Shown: positions 4,848-16,208 of the stretch, one piece after another
Position numbering within the stretch: position 1 is the first letter of the stretch
Layout: each line of letters begins with the position of its first letter
Source: Patescibacteria group bacterium
Lineage (GTDB): Bacteria > Patescibacteriota > Minisyncoccia > Phycocordibacterales > PALSA-1337
Assembly: GCA_023487965.1 (NCBI GenBank)
Contig: JAMDBV010000004.1
Location: 1-16,770 of the forward strand
Reading direction: 5' to 3'
Length of the DNA: 16,770 bases
The notes under the pieces: model-generated
Databases searched by the model: none
What the model saw: only the letters and a program-made list of their open reading frames with translations
Told to the model about the DNA's origin: nothing
Program-made: the position numbers and the translations under genes

Positions 4848-5587
4848 TTTCTAATTACGACAGTCTTTTCTCAATTTCCTCTCTTGCGATTTTAGCGTCG
4901 CTCCATGGAGTCTTGGTATCATTCGGGCCCATAATGTATGGATCGGTACCTTTGCCTGTAATCAAGACAGAATCTCCGGTCTTGGCGCGCTTTATGGCTT
5001 CGCGTATAGCTTCGCGTCGATCCATAATGATAGTCGGTGTTTGTGTCACTATACCTTCGCAAATATCATCAACGATCTTTTTGGGGTCCTCGTCGTACGG
5101 ATCCTCATCGGTTAGGATAATCTCATCACAATAATTGTCAGCGATTCTGCCCATGTCCCTGCGCTTCCAACGATCACGGCCCCCTCCGGTACCGCCGAGA
5201 ACGCATATACTCTTGGAATCTTCGAATACCTGATAGAGTTTCTCGAGGGAATCGGCCGTATGAGCGTAATCGACAATAACGGTGAAATCCTGTTTACTCT
5301 TTATTTCCGGTTTGTCCGAATATATCTTTTGTACTCTGCCCGGAATACCTTCAAAGGCTTCTATGGCTCTCACAATCGTATCGTCTCCGACTCCCTGGCT
5401 TCGTGCCGCCGAAGCGGCTGCTACGATATTGTATAGGTTGAATAATCCTTTGAGCCGACTGTGTGCGGTGCGGCCGGAAATGGTCAAGCTGATACCGTTT
5501 TCATCGATATTATACGGTTCGACATCTTTGACGGAGAAACTGATCTTGTGTTCGACATTACATTCCAGGAATCTATATGCTTCCTTA

Positions 5588-5608
5588 TCATCTGACAATC
5601 TCTACAAG
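5588..5608 (-). repeat. 21-nt inverted repeat inside murE, arm holding the amber codon
   Basis: The 21 bases here are the exact reverse complement of 5863-5883. Both arms are in murE, 254 nt apart. Read in the gene's sense the arm gives L-stop-R-L-S-D-D, where Mur ligases normally carry a hydrophobic strand followed by N-x-DD. Confidence 0.97.
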
Positions 5609-5862
5609 GCGCGGTTCGCTTTTTTGGAACGGGCGAGCTGTTTTGCTATGTCGAGCTTGGCACTGGCGTAATTTTCATATGAGCCGTGGGCTTCGATATG
5701 TTCCGGCGAAAGGTTGGTGAATACGAGGGCGTCCATGGATATGAAACGTTGGCGATGCAATAGTGCGCCTTGGGATGTCATTTCGATAATGGCGAAATCG
5801 CATTTTGCATTTACGGCTCGGCGCAGAAGTCTCTGCAGTGCGAACCGGCCGGGCATGCTCAT

Positions 5863-5883
5863 CTTGTAGAGATTGTCAGATGA
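5863..5883 (-). repeat. 21-nt inverted repeat inside murE, donor-like arm
   Basis: Exact reverse complement of 5588-5608. In the gene's sense it encodes SSDNLYK (residues 87-93), immediately before the conserved MSMPGR motif, so this arm looks like the original coding sequence. Confidence 0.97.
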
Positions 5884-6151
5884 CGATTCGGCGACCTTGA
5901 AGCGTATCGTATTTGATAGGGCGACACGATAACCCGATTCTTCGAGCATGGCTCCAAGAAGCTCCACGGTCGAACTTTTGCCCTTCGTTCCCGTTACGCC
6001 GATGACTTTTATCTTGCGAGAAGGGAAGCGATAGTATATGGCACCCAAAAGCGCGAGCAGGAAATGGTATGCCGGTCCGGATTTGCTATGGACCAATTTT
6101 GGAGTGATGCGACGGATTTTGCTGAGGATTTTTTCGATCATGGGATTTGTA

Positions 6152-8372: not shown

Positions 8373-8462
8373 TGGCGGAGGAGGTGGGATTCGAACCCAC
8401 GGTCCCTTTTCAGAGACAACAGTTTTCAAGACTGTCCGATTAAACCACTCTCGCACTCCTCC
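8373..8462 (-). tRNA. tRNA-Ser, anticodon TGA, CCA encoded
   Basis: A class II tRNA on the minus strand. The acceptor is GGAGGAG/CTCCTCC with discriminator G and an encoded CCA (8373-8375). The anticodon stem ACAGT/ACTGT closes loop CTTGAAA, so the anticodon is TGA (8426-8428). There is a long variable arm (about TGTCTCTGAAAAGGGAC), and the T-arm is CGTGGG-TTCGAAT-CCCAC. The nuclease ORF upstream on the same strand runs 37 nt into this gene and ends exactly on the anticodon triplet. Confidence 0.95.
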
Positions 8463-8827
8463 GTATATTTTCGAAGAACCAATGATAGGGCATCCTTATC
8501 GTTTGGTTTTACCGATCTACGTCCGGACAGGTCTCTCCTAACCAAATACTCTCTGCTGTCACTCGTGAGAACGTATAGCCAGTCGTACGAACCGGCTTTC
8601 GGCTTCTTGACCACATACCCTGTTGAATTGGAATGTATTCTGCGCAAATCAGTCTGTCCGTTAGCCGCATATCTCACCTGCACCCTCTTCAGCTCTCTGC
8701 CCGTATCGACAATAATGTCGTACGAAGCAGATTCGGTCAAGGGTAGAGCCACATCATAACCGTTTTTTGTGAACGTCGCAACCGCTTGTGCGACGGCAAT
8801 ATCTCCTTTTCTTTGGGTGATTCGCAT
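8426..8827 (-). CDS. PD-(D/E)XK nuclease, group I intron endonuclease-like (PDDEXK_5)
   Basis: The 133-residue product matches the small PDDEXK_5 family. KGDIAVAQAVATFTKNGYDVALPL (7-30) forms the first helix and strand, SYDIIVD (35-41) carries the metal-binding Asp37, KRVQVRYA (47-54) holds the Q-x-[K/R] end of the motif, and YDWLYVL (81-87) is the family's C-terminal strand. The catalytic Lys is Arg here (R52), so activity is uncertain. Residues 123-133 are encoded inside tRNA-Ser, and the stop is the tRNA anticodon. No intron is visible around it, so it stands alone. The start ATG 8827 has no clear -10 at the 6-nt distance. It is divergent from ruvX (69 bp). Members are common in candidate phyla; the biological role there is unknown. 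Confidence 0.8.
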   Translation of the reverse strand: MRITQRKGDIAVAQAVATFTKNGYDVALPLTESASYDIIVDTGRELKRVQVRYAANGQTDLRRIHSNSTGYVVKKPKAGSYDWLYVLTSDSREYLVRRDLSGRRSVKPNDKDALSLVLRKYTEECESGLIGQS

Positions 8828-9283: not shown

Positions 9284-9293
9284 GATTTGTGAT

Positions 9294-9323
9294 GTGTCAT
9301 CCTCGCGAAAGCGAGGATCCACT
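9294..9323. repeat. REP-like palindromic element with GAAA tetraloop
   Basis: ATCCTCGC (9299-9306), GAAA, GCGAGGAT (9311-9318): an 8-bp perfect stem capped by a GNRA loop. The flanks TGTC and CCACT match the widely distributed palindromic repeat of the form TCATCC-[C/T]CGCGAAAGCG-GGATCC. It lies between ruvX and dedA and could also slow or stabilise the transcript end. Confidence 0.75.
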
Positions 9324-9342
9324 TATGCGAATAGCCTTGAAG

Positions 9343-9365
9343 TTAGATCAATTAGGCCAATTAGA
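9343..9365 (+). repeat. AT-rich dispersed repeat, copy 2 (first copy 2072-2094)
   Basis: Matches the minus strand of 2072-2094 at 20 of 23 positions, with the first 14 bases identical. It lies just before the DedA start. Confidence 0.6.
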
Positions 9366-9375
9366 AATTAATGAT

Positions 9376-9975
9376 ATGTTAAATCCGGAAACACTCATCA
9401 CAACACTGGGCACGATCGGAGTAATCGTCATTATATTTATGGAGACGGGACTCTTCTTCGGCTTTTTCTTTCCGGGTGATTCGTTACTATTTACCGCCGG
9501 TTTCTTGGCGAGCGGGGGCTATGTGTCTTTGCCGATCATACTCTTCGGGGCATTCATCGCGGCCATATTGGGTGATAGCTTTGGGTACGCATTCGGGTCG
9601 CGTATCGGCCCGGCGATATTCCGCAAGGATAATTCGTTTTTTTTCAATCGAAAATATATAGAGAAGGCAGAGGTTTTTTATGAGAAGTACGGCAAGAAGA
9701 CAATTATCTTGGCGCGATTTGTGCCCATCGTGAGGACTTTTGCACCGATCGTGGCGGGCGTGGGCAAGATGTCATATCGTACATTCATCGCTTTCAATGT
9801 TATCGGGGCATTCCTGTGGACATGGGGCATGACTATCGCCGGCTATGCGCTCGGCAGTCTGGTGCCCAATCCCGACAAATACGTATTACCGGCGGTAAAT
9901 AGTAACGAATCACCATCGATCATGCCGGCATTGAGGGAAATTATAAAATCTAGGAATAATAAAGACAAAATATAA
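9376..9975 (+). CDS. DedA-family inner-membrane protein
   Basis: DedA proteins are polytopic membrane proteins; recent work ties members to lipid-carrier or phospholipid flipping, and others affect membrane potential and division. The best start is ATG 9376 (MLNPETLITTLG), because the longer ORF begins in the REP-like hairpin. This gives 199 residues. FMETGLFFGFFFPGDSLLFTAGFLA (~17-41) is the first conserved motif (E-x-G-L-x-x-G-F-F-x-P-G-[D/E]). GAFIAAILGDSFGYAFGSRIG (~51-71) contains G-D-x-x-G-Y-x-x-G-R, and FVPIVRTFAPIVAGVGKM (~112-129) is the third motif with the essential Arg. F-x-x-N-x-x-G-A-x-x-W follows. A short Ser/Asn/Lys-rich tail closes the protein. No operon partner is evident, since pilM has its own promoter downstream. 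Confidence 0.92.
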   Translation: MLNPETLITTLGTIGVIVIIFMETGLFFGFFFPGDSLLFTAGFLASGGYVSLPIILFGAFIAAILGDSFGYAFGSRIGPAIFRKDNSFFFNRKYIEKAEVFYEKYGKKTIILARFVPIVRTFAPIVAGVGKMSYRTFIAFNVIGAFLWTWGMTIAGYALGSLVPNPDKYVLPAVNSNESPSIMPALREIIKSRNNKDKI

Positions 9976-9985
9976 CAGCATATCA

Positions 9986-10021
9986 TTGGCAATTATTCTA
10001 TTTCATTCTAAAATAGAATCA
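9986..10021 (+). promoter_or_regulatory. -35/-10 promoter giving a leaderless pilM operon mRNA
   Basis: TTGGCA (9986-9991), 17 bp, TAAAAT (10009-10014), six bases, then ATG 10021. This has the best -35 box of the leaderless set and no TGn extension. Confidence 0.7.
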
Positions 10022-10983
10022 TGCATCGTTCCTTTTTCTTCAAATTATTTCCACCACCTCGCTATCTCGCCGTATCTCATTCAGGACTGGAGATAGAAGA
10101 CAATGCCATCAGGATGGTTGAATACGGTCGCAAGAGCGGGGGCATGTGCATCAGCAAATTCGACAGTCAAGAATTGCCGGACGGTCTCGTCGATGGAGGA
10201 GACGTGAGAGATGAAAACAAGTTTGTCGAGATCTTGACTGACTTCGTGAGACGCAATCGTATTTCATACGCCAGAGTCTCTTTGCCCGAAGAGAAGGTGT
10301 ATCTGTTTCAGACGGATATCGAAAGTGATATCACCAAGGAAGCAACTCAAAATATCGAATTCAAATTGGAAGAAAATGTACCTTTATCAGCCGAAGATTC
10401 TCTCTTCTATTTCGATATTCTGCCAAAGACGGTAACGGGAGGAATGTTGCGGGCAAGCGTATCGGTCGCACCGAAAACCTATATCGAGAAATTCGTGTCA
10501 CGGTTGAAGTCTGTCGGGGTGACGCCTATCGCGCTTGAGATTTCGCCAAAGGCGATAACTCGTTCAGCCGTGCCGCTCTCGGATGAACCGACGCTTATTA
10601 TTCATGCTATGAAGGGTAAAACCGGTACGTATATCGTATCTGGAGGTGTTGTATGTTTCTCTTCGACATTGGCTTGGACTTCCGGCAGTAACGATACGAT
10701 TCTGACCTTGCCGGGGAAATTGGTCAAAGAAATAGGTCGAGTTCGCGATTATTGGTCGACTCGGCCTGAAACGCATTCTGATATATCCCATATCCTTTTT
10801 GTGGGCGAGAATGCCGTCCAAGCGCTTTCAGGTACGAAGATTGCCCTGTCTGTCGGCAACATAAAGGTGGCGCAGGCCAATACATGGGAGAATATTTTTG
10901 ATCTGGAGAAATATATACCGCCGATCGATAACGATAGATCGTCGCAGTTCGTTGTGGCCGCCGGTTTGGCCCTGCCGCTATAA
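10021..10983 (+). CDS. pilM: Type IV pilus assembly protein PilM
   Basis: PilM is an actin-like cytoplasmic ATPase-fold protein that binds the N-terminus of PilN and links the pilus inner-membrane ring to the motors. Its 320 residues show the first strand pair (YLAVSHSGLEIEDNAIRMVEY, ~14-34), a SLPEEKVYLFQTDI region (~87-100), NIEFKLEENVPLSAEDSLFYFDI (~110-132), and C-terminal strands including TLIIHAMKGKTGTYIVSGG. The phosphate-binding sequences are degenerate compared with typical PilM: DIGxxxIK is SHSGLEIE here, so nucleotide binding may be weakened. It leads a four-gene operon; pilN begins 5 nt after its stop. Confidence 0.87.
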   Translation: MHRSFFFKLFPPPRYLAVSHSGLEIEDNAIRMVEYGRKSGGMCISKFDSQELPDGLVDGGDVRDENKFVEILTDFVRRNRISYARVSLPEEKVYLFQTDIESDITKEATQNIEFKLEENVPLSAEDSLFYFDILPKTVTGGMLRASVSVAPKTYIEKFVSRLKSVGVTPIALEISPKAITRSAVPLSDEPTLIIHAMKGKTGTYIVSGGVVCFSSTLAWTSGSNDTILTLPGKLVKEIGRVRDYWSTRPETHSDISHILFVGENAVQALSGTKIALSVGNIKVAQANTWENIFDLEKYIPPIDNDRSSQFVVAAGLALPL

Positions 10984-10987
10984 AAAG

Positions 10988-11527
10988 ATGAGACATACAT
11001 TATTACCAATTCAAGACAGAAAAGCGCTAAGGCACGATTATACCGCGCGCTTCGTAACCACCCTCTGTCTGTTTCTTTCCTTGGCCGCCGTCATCGGAGC
11101 GGTAGCATTGTTGCCGGCGTACATTCACGCCAGAAATATGGAACAATCAGAACTGGCAATGGTCCAGTCCTTGCAGAGTAATAACGACAAAAGCGGACTC
11201 TCGAATATAGAGAACGAATTGAAATCGGATGCGGCAACTATCAAGAAGGCGTCAGGTTCTACGGGATCATCAGCAATGTCGGATGCCGTAAAGGAATTGA
11301 TAGCACTGCGTGGCAAGGTCAGAATCGTATCGTTCGCTTATAATCCGCAACCAAAAGTCATGTCGATGGTCATTCAAGGCATAGCACCGACCAGAGAAGA
11401 GTTGGTTGTATTCAAGGATCGTATCCAAAACAGCATCAGCGGGGCAAGCGTCGAATTGCCTCTGTCACAGTTGACGAAAAGTAGCGACATACCGTTTTCT
11501 GTTGCAGTCACGTATTCACTGCCATGA
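10988..11527 (+). CDS. pilN: Type IV pilus inner-membrane protein PilN
   Basis: PilN forms, with PilO, the periplasmic stalk of the pilus machine, and its N-terminus docks into PilM. Start ATG 10988 gives 179 residues. The cytoplasmic N-terminus HTLLPIQDRKALRHDY resembles the PilM-binding NLLP motif with an L-L-P core. One membrane helix spans ~24-44, followed by a helical segment (~48-90) and a compact domain with FAYNPQPKVMSMVIQGIAPTREELVVF, the ferredoxin-like fold typical of PilN. The longer ORF to 10898 is rejected because it lies inside pilM. Its TGA stop overlaps the ATG of pilO (ATGA). Confidence 0.82.
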   Translation: MRHTLLPIQDRKALRHDYTARFVTTLCLFLSLAAVIGAVALLPAYIHARNMEQSELAMVQSLQSNNDKSGLSNIENELKSDAATIKKASGSTGSSAMSDAVKELIALRGKVRIVSFAYNPQPKVMSMVIQGIAPTREELVVFKDRIQNSISGASVELPLSQLTKSSDIPFSVAVTYSLP

Positions 11528-13070: not shown

Positions 13071-13089
13071 GAAGGAACACAAAGAATAT

Positions 13090-13165
13090 AATACGAATCT
13101 ACGAATTATGCGAATGCTACGAATAAATACAATACGAATCTACGAATTATACGAATGCTACGAAT
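13090..13165. repeat. Two tandem 35-bp units of ACGAAT repeats
   Basis: Units at 13090-13124 and 13131-13165 have a 41-bp period and differ at one base (TATG versus TATA). Each unit contains four CGAAT cores 7-10 bp apart. Such ACGAAT arrays are frequent between genes in Parcubacteria-type genomes. Here they separate tRNA-Val from the rluD promoter. Confidence 0.88.
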
Positions 13166-14395: not shown

Positions 14396-16208
14396 ATGGA
14401 AATAAGAAATATTGCAATTATCGCCCACGTTGACCACGGTAAGACAACACTTACCGACGCCATAATGACCCAATGTGGTCATGGCGATGAAGGCTCGATG
14501 GACTCAAACGCTCTCGAACAAGAGCGCGGTATTACTATTTATGCAAAGAATACCTCCATCCAATACAAGGGAACAAAGATCAATATCGTCGATACTCCTG
14601 GACACGCGGATTTTGGTTCGGAAGTCGAACGCGTATTGCGCTCTATCGATACCGTATTGCTGGTCGTTGATGCCCAAGAAGGACCGATGCCTCAAACCCG
14701 TTTCGTGTTGAAGAAGTCGCTCGAACTCGGTCTCAAGCCGATCGTCGTAATAAACAAGATAGACAAGCCGGCGGCGGATCCGGAGAGGGCGCACGAGCAG
14801 GTCCTCGAGCTTTTTTTCGAACTCGGAGCCAATGAAGAGCAGATCAATTTCCCGACGATTTACGCTATTGGTCGGCAAGGTATTGCCAAGAAAAATATTT
14901 CTGATGATACAAAGGATCTCTCGGCTCTGCTCGATACGATAATCGAGCATGTCATTCCTGCTAATTCTGACACAAATATTTCCAATAATGGTTCAGCGGC
15001 GCAAGTATTCAATCTGGCATATGACAATTTCCTCGGTCGCATGTCGATATGTCGCGTATACGGTGGTAAATTTGTCGACGGACAAAGCGTCTTCGTCAAG
15101 AACAATTCGGGACGGACATACGCGGGCAAAATAACAAAACTTTTTACATTTGAAGGCAAACAAAGGGTTGCTGTACCGGAAATTGTCGCCGGCGATATCG
15201 TTATGATTGCCGGAATGCCGGAAATATTTATCGGCGATACAATCGTCGATACCGAAAACGGTGATGTCATGCCGGCCATAAAGATCGATGAGCCGACGGT
15301 CAGCGTCGACATTCTGGTGAACAATTCTCCATTTGCCGGCAGAGAAGGTAAGTTTGTGACCGGTCGTCAGATACGCGAAAGACTGGAAAAGGAACTCGAA
15401 GTCAATGTCGGTCTTAGGATTGATTTTTCCTCCAATGAATCGTTCCATGTGAGTGGTCGCGGTGAATTGCATATCGCCATTTTGCTCGAGAATATGCGCC
15501 GCCGAAGGATATGAACTCCAAGTTTCACAACCACACGTCATCACAAAGGAAAGGGTTGAGATGGTAAATGGTGAAGAAGTGAAGACTATCGAGGAACCGT
15601 ATGAAGAATTGACTATAGATATGCCCGAAGCTTATTCTGGCGCTGTTATCGAAAGACTCGGCAAGCGTAAAGGTATCATGAAGGACATGAAGAGTCGTGA
15701 TGGACATGTGCGAATGCTTTTTGATATTCCGACGCGCGGTCTCTTGGGTTATCGCAACATTTTTACTATCGATACCAAAGGTGAGGGTATACTCTCCAGT
15801 CGCTTTACTGATTTCCATGAATATGCTGGCGAGATAGAGAAGCGCGAAACGGGTTCGATGACGTCTATGATATCTGGCAAAGCACTCGGCTACGCCTTGT
15901 GGAATCTCCAGGAAAGGGGCAGGCTCTATATCGCGCCGGCGGAGGAAGTTTATGAAGGCATGGTTATCGGCGACACATCGAAAGGCGAAGACATGGCGGT
16001 TAATCCTTGCAAAGGCAAGCAACTCACAAATATGCGCGCTTCGGGATCCGATGAAGCGATCATGCTTGAGCCGGCATATCGTCTAGATATAGAAAGGGGC
16101 CTGGAATTGATGCGCGACGATGAATATCTCGAAGTTACGCCAAAGAGCGTTCGCTTGCGCAAGAAATTCCTGACTGAACTCGATAGGGTGAGGGCGGGGA
16201 GGAAATAG
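14396..16208 (+). pseudogene. typA: Ribosome-associated GTPase TypA/BipA with a one-base frameshift
   Basis: TypA is a translational GTPase that binds 70S ribosomes and helps 50S assembly and stress or cold growth. Frame 1 (to 15503) has HVDHGKTT (11-18, G1), RGITI (44-48, G2), DTPGHADFG (66-74, G3) and NKID (120-123, G4), then domain II and SGRGELHIAILLENMRR. Frame 2 continues without loss: EGYELQVSQPHVITKE, domain III, GLLGYRNIF, and the BipA C-terminal domain (RGRLYIAPAEEVYEGMVIG, NPCKGKQLTNMRASG). One extra C in the CC at 15502-15503 causes the break after codon 369 (CGC); removing it gives 603 codons, the normal family length. Everything else is intact, so a sequencing or assembly error is the simplest cause. 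A real recent mutation or a +1 shift at CGC-CGA cannot be excluded. Confidence 0.93.

Follow-up and report, generated by a model that had tools for sequence, protein, structure and literature searches.

Chimeras formed during multiple displacement amplification (MDA) are for the most part inverted. In the available portion of one study, 406 of 475 chimeras (85%) were of this kind, the order of the segments was reversed in approximately half, complementary matches of at least 2 nt were present at 76.8% of junctions, and there was about one junction per 22 kb (PMC1855051). Excerpts of two other reports place the peak of the distance between MDA chimera segments at 250–300 nt, with an overlap peak of 6 nt (PMC4595205), and at 80–280 nt, with an overlap peak of 7 nt (PMC5372508). 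A 2026 paper, as represented by part of its text, addresses palindromic MDA reads that disturb assembly (PMC13265396), and Patescibacteria are among the organisms that, according to a report available in part, have been studied by single-cell MDA with short-read assembly (PMC8241940).

The stretch of DNA that we analyzed (hereafter the window; 16,770 nucleotides) is contig 9 of a genome of 506,721 bases in 61 contigs, with a completeness of 74%. On its minus strand lies murE (4855–6141), the gene for UDP-N-acetylmuramyl-tripeptide synthetase, which reads as two pieces because of an in-frame TAG at codon 180 (5602–5604). Both pieces match TIGR01085 (1.4e-33 and 2.2e-56, each under the whole-protein cut-off), and there are matches to Mur_ligase_M and Mur_ligase_C. 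A preliminary description of this DNA had placed the stop codon within a 21-nt inverted copy of another part of the same gene, and our repeat search of the window bore this out: positions 5588–5608, which hold the TAG, and 5863–5883 (both arms read on the minus strand) are exact 21-nt reverse complements separated by 254 nt. The same description had considered chance very unlikely as the origin of the repeat, and we reject it, with an expectation of ~16,770 × 1,000 × 4^-21 = 4e-6. Exact inverted repeats of at least 15 nt are indeed few in the window; at any distance there are three others, of which two are longer and of the same kind and one is a 16-nt hairpin.

We aligned the murE site with 109 relative loci, drawn from named contigs and from other genomes (some genomes being present twice). 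Relatives differ from the window in sequence at this site, and just 3 of the 109 loci have a gap at codons 174–190; the replacement therefore most likely kept the length of the gene, as had been proposed. In nearly all of the 60 loci listed of the 109, the site reads hydrophobic-x-N-x-DD, as against L-stop-R-L-S-DD in the window, which agrees with the family pattern described earlier (the exceptions among these 60 are L142, L132 and L117/L033, where DD differs, and L116/L016, which are gapped). The proposed direction of copying, from 5863–5883 as the original to 5588–5608 as the copy, also proved right, since the source arm is closer to the relatives: averaged over 83 distinct relatives, 12.4 of 21 nt are identical to the window in the source arm, versus 7.6 in the copied arm. 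The source arm encodes SSDNLYK, and the nearest relative agrees with it at six of the seven residues. No murE relatives were found on plasmids, and a search for a same-strain murE found none, the highest identity being 71% among the best 120 of 8000 proteins scored. Because no same-strain murE was found, our interpretation of the stop codon is argued from two neighboring repeats and from the assembly as a whole.

The inverted repeat in murE is real but, a point missed in the preliminary description, it is not unique, for there are two more in the window and dozens in the assembly. The first of the neighbors (9475–9501 and 9888–9914; 27 nt, 386 nt apart) has both arms within a plus-strand gene of the dedA family (9289–9975; NF008102, 2.4e-47, under the cut-off; VTT_dom), the true start of which is probably downstream, near 9373. 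(The N-terminal extension, at 9293–9370, consists of two short dispersed repeats, encoding CHPRESEDP and then LDQLGQL, that have more copies genome-wide.) One arm is family-like and the other is not: at 9475–9501, the source arm, all nine residues are the same in the three best relatives shown, whereas the copied arm, 9888–9914, is missing from an otherwise identical protein. In particular, a database DedA protein from a contig of 2334 bases (P0121) is identical to the window protein at 220 of 227 residues, all 7 differences fall inside arm 9888–9914, and at that site P0121 has a family-like hydrophobic stretch. The second neighbor (10690–10712 and 11312–11334; 23 nt, 599 nt apart) spans pilM (10021–10983, plus strand; TIGR01175, 1.1e-5, under the cut-off; PilM_2, 4.7e-7) and a pilN-like gene on the same strand. 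Here a database PilM protein from a contig of 2089 bases (P0241) is identical to the window protein at 315 of 320 residues, and all 5 differences fall inside the copied arm, 10690–10712. For the source arm in the pilN-like gene, 11312–11334, relatives agree at 4 of 8 (L174) and 2 of 8 (L096) residues. Relatives thus support the assignment of source and copy for murE and dedA and do so less clearly for pilM/pilN; because the pilM region is variable among relatives, the main support for the assignment there is P0241.

Both database proteins are length-neutral with respect to those of the window, and all three patches in the window are short and entail no change in length. (Note that when length neutrality was compared across all of the repeats, the result was for the most part uninformative, as many arms are intergenic or have no homologue.) The window's genome contains no contig of 2334 or 2089 bases, and P0121 and P0241 may represent a different cell, strain or assembly. 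We also considered a duplicate locus and rejected it; the DNA from 9289 to 11527 has matches at 17 places in the same genome, and these are nothing but the region itself, its repeat arms and dispersed short repeats.

Several other features of the window deserve mention. The contig starts within an IS4-family transposase gene (3–1163; NF033592), a common assembly break site. In typA (14396–16208), a frameshift near 15500, possibly another sequence error, produces two overlapping frames, with TIGR01394 matching both halves. A minus-strand frame of 133 aa (8426–8827) overlaps a tRNA-Ser gene (8373–8462), and two 40-nt tandem units of 95% identity (13085–13165) lie between a tRNA-Val gene and a frame that, from the look of its sequence, we take to be pseudouridine-synthase-like.

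We screened the assembly for exact inverted repeats of at least 19 nt with arms 50–3000 nt apart, counting over 498,311 readable bases. The screen returned 42, of which 5 were dropped because their arms are found elsewhere in the genome, leaving 37 unique-arm repeats in ~0.5 Mb. These have a median spacing of 346 nt and, as in MDA chimeras, are near and inverted. In 16 of the 37, where ~0.2% would be expected, an arm ends no more than 1 nt from a contig end (8 repeats) or from a run of N (8 repeats), such runs being taken as scaffold gaps although part may instead be masked sequence. Arms of at least 43 nt reach a contig end or N run in six of eight cases; the other positional class, that of internal repeats, comprises 21 of the 37, and 17 of these have arms of 20–32 nt. 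By comparison, none of the five repeats in two control genomes, in both of which contig ends were scored, touches a contig end or N run (G015, 84 kb in 20 contigs; G002, 261 kb in 20 contigs or contig starts).

Inverted repeats with spacings of 20–100 nt are no commoner here (5 in 0.5 Mb) than in controls (16 in 1.11 Mb), and several with spacings of 78–109 nt look like ordinary intergenic elements; we therefore compared densities at spacings of at least 130 nt. At 130–2500 nt the window's genome has 30 unique-arm repeats in 497 kb, or 60.3 per Mb, versus none in G015, 1 (3.8 per Mb) in G002 and 1 (0.9 per Mb) in 1.11 Mb of named control loci. The last are the best-matching 80 of 321 loci from the murE scan, and those best-matching loci are from Patescibacteria, including Taylorbacteria, Nomurabacteria and Campbellbacteria. 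The genome with the top match among 60 (G009; 575 kb, stretches L174–L210) stands above the other controls, with 7 unique exact inverted repeats at this spacing, or 12.2 per Mb.

When mismatches were allowed, at spacings of 100–1000 nt, 25 of 30 inverted repeats in the window's genome were exact; the corresponding figures were 5 of 8 for G009 and 2 of 6 for the named loci. Direct repeats found in the same way numbered 11 in the window's genome, 43 in the named loci and 12 in G009, of which 6, 9 and 1, respectively, were exact. Inverted repeats thus outnumber direct ones here, whereas the controls show the reverse (43 direct versus 6 inverted in the named loci; 12 versus 8 in G009). Exact repeats of at least 19 nt over the same distances comprise 32 inverted and 14 direct in this genome, and exact direct repeats of at least 36 nt number 7 in 0.5 Mb here versus 4 in 1.11 Mb of the named loci. 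Because the inverted repeats are mostly exact, the excess lacks the decaying copies that old mutations would leave.

The edges of the patches bear on how the copies arose. Bases shared between a patch and the unaltered gene were deduced from forced nucleotide differences, so that the values are upper bounds. The dedA patch has at most 7 nt in common with the unaltered gene on one side and none on the other, where forced differences reach the last base of the arm; for pilM the corresponding values are at most 4 nt and at most 1 nt. In murE, where the edges were read from relatives, up to ~4 and ~7 nt could be common, which would also fit a switch matched at both ends, and murE alone therefore does not decide the mechanism. 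If a polymerase went back to its original template, it would be expected to require matches at that point, and length need not be preserved; the tail of a chimeric read overlaid on true sequence would have a match at one junction, an arbitrarily placed second end and unchanged length. The strand switching originally proposed for murE stands insofar as a polymerase appears to have changed strands where short matches occur, but the switch and return that formed part of that proposal is disfavored by the dedA and pilM edges.

Taken together, our findings make it very probable that the stop-bearing arm of murE is an artefact of inverted chimera formation in vitro, most likely the tail of a phi29 MDA read overlaid in assembly. 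The repeats themselves, their excess, their coincidence with breaks in the assembly, the absence of decay among them and the unaltered proteins available for two of the three repeats in the window are observed; that phi29 MDA was the means of amplification is the most likely reading of them, that a read tail was laid over real bases is what we infer from the patches, and murE itself is probably intact in the organism. The artefact could have arisen as follows. Very little DNA, from one or a few cells, would have been amplified in vitro, likely by phi29 MDA. A growing 3′ end, once displaced, would anneal through a handful of matching bases to a nearby strand running the other way, re-prime there and copy it, so that the resulting murE reads cross over at one of the arms into the inverted form of sequence ~254 nt off. 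Wherever true coverage was low, ungapped read tails of 20–30 nt may have been taken into the assembly in place of the real bases, and longer tails, too long to be overlaid, would tend to terminate contigs or scaffold pieces.

The preliminary description had instead seen a mutation in the organism's own murE, in which replication changed strands at short inverted matches, went back after copying ~21 nt, and so broke the gene. In vivo template switching that yields identical inverted-repeat arms is known in yeast (PMC8604942, available in part), and both the length-neutral replacement and the possible short matches at the two murE edges are as such a mutation would have them. We nevertheless consider it very unlikely, because half a megabase would have to hold dozens of such events that show no decay, many of them ending right at a contig end or N run, in an assembly full of such copies; because the dedA and pilM copies are missing from otherwise identical proteins; because the one-sided edges of these two patches (0 nt in dedA, at most 1 nt in pilM) leave little or no match for a return; and because the spacers searched in the available part of the yeast work reach 70 nt at most, compared with a median of 346 nt here. 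To a variant of this idea, that a patescibacterial lineage is truly going through a burst of inverted template switching over long range, still under way and polymorphic within the population, we give scarcely any credence; if true, it would mean tens of fresh inverted copies of 20–100 nt per genome, with murE, dedA and pilM broken in some cells and intact in others.

A source in vitro other than phi29 MDA, such as fold-back chimeras arising in low-input library preparation, seems unlikely, if well short of negligible. Library-preparation artefacts associated with sequences that form structures, inverted repeats among them, have been reported (PMC10908179, in the portion available), but recovery of 74% of the genome in 61 contigs, the excess of inverted repeats and spacings of hundreds of nucleotides would suit MDA well. 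(Note that this reading shares the verdict of an artefact with the phi29 reading and differs in the step held responsible, so that the two overlap and our estimates do not sum to one.) We also weighed a 21-bp helix, of RNA or DNA, that closes a 254-nt loop and is conserved for a function in murE expression. The arms are perfectly complementary in the window, but the copied arm breaks the reading frame, and the positions corresponding to the two arms in 83 distinct relatives pair on average at 6.4 of 21 (maximum 11), with shifted controls at 5.3 (maximum 13). Pairing is not kept in the relatives; we accordingly reject a conserved hairpin, and a functional helix has almost no chance of being correct.

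At face value, the window would present a striking mutation that has turned a cell-wall gene into a pseudogene. If the patch in murE is instead an overlaid chimeric read tail, as we favor, assemblies of this kind can hold short errors within genes, which completeness checks would be expected to miss. A simple screen is to count exact inverted repeats of at least 19 nt at spacings of 130–2500 nt per Mb and to score their positions relative to contig ends.

Comparison with known systems is limited to the portions of the respective reports that were available. Like the coding palindromes of Nematomorpha mitochondria (PMC6649704), the repeats described here are perfect inverted repeats within protein-coding genes; however, in Nematomorpha both arms are protein-coding, in four species, whereas here conserved sequence is lost where the copied arm lies, and relatives do not have that arm. 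As in the template-switch (quasipalindrome) mutations of yeast (PMC8604942), one arm becomes an exact copy through several adjacent substitutions. The search in yeast covered spacers of up to 70 nt, with arms of up to 16 bp in the portion available, as against arms of 21–27 nt lying 254–599 nt apart in the window; a further difference is that for two of the three window repeats there are proteins, identical elsewhere, that do not carry the copy. The likeness is closest to the chimeras of phi29 MDA (Lasken and Stockwell 2007; PMC1855051), which are described in reads, whereas the patches here lie inside contigs and at contig ends, and among which the intramolecular events favor inversion 26-fold, more than the ratio of inverted to direct repeats here (25:6 or 32:14). 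In both cases the copies are inverted, lie hundreds of nucleotides apart, occur genome-wide and in both segment orders, and have room for short matches at one junction, the match being about 3–13 nt in MDA and, as upper bounds, 7 nt in dedA and 4 nt in pilM.
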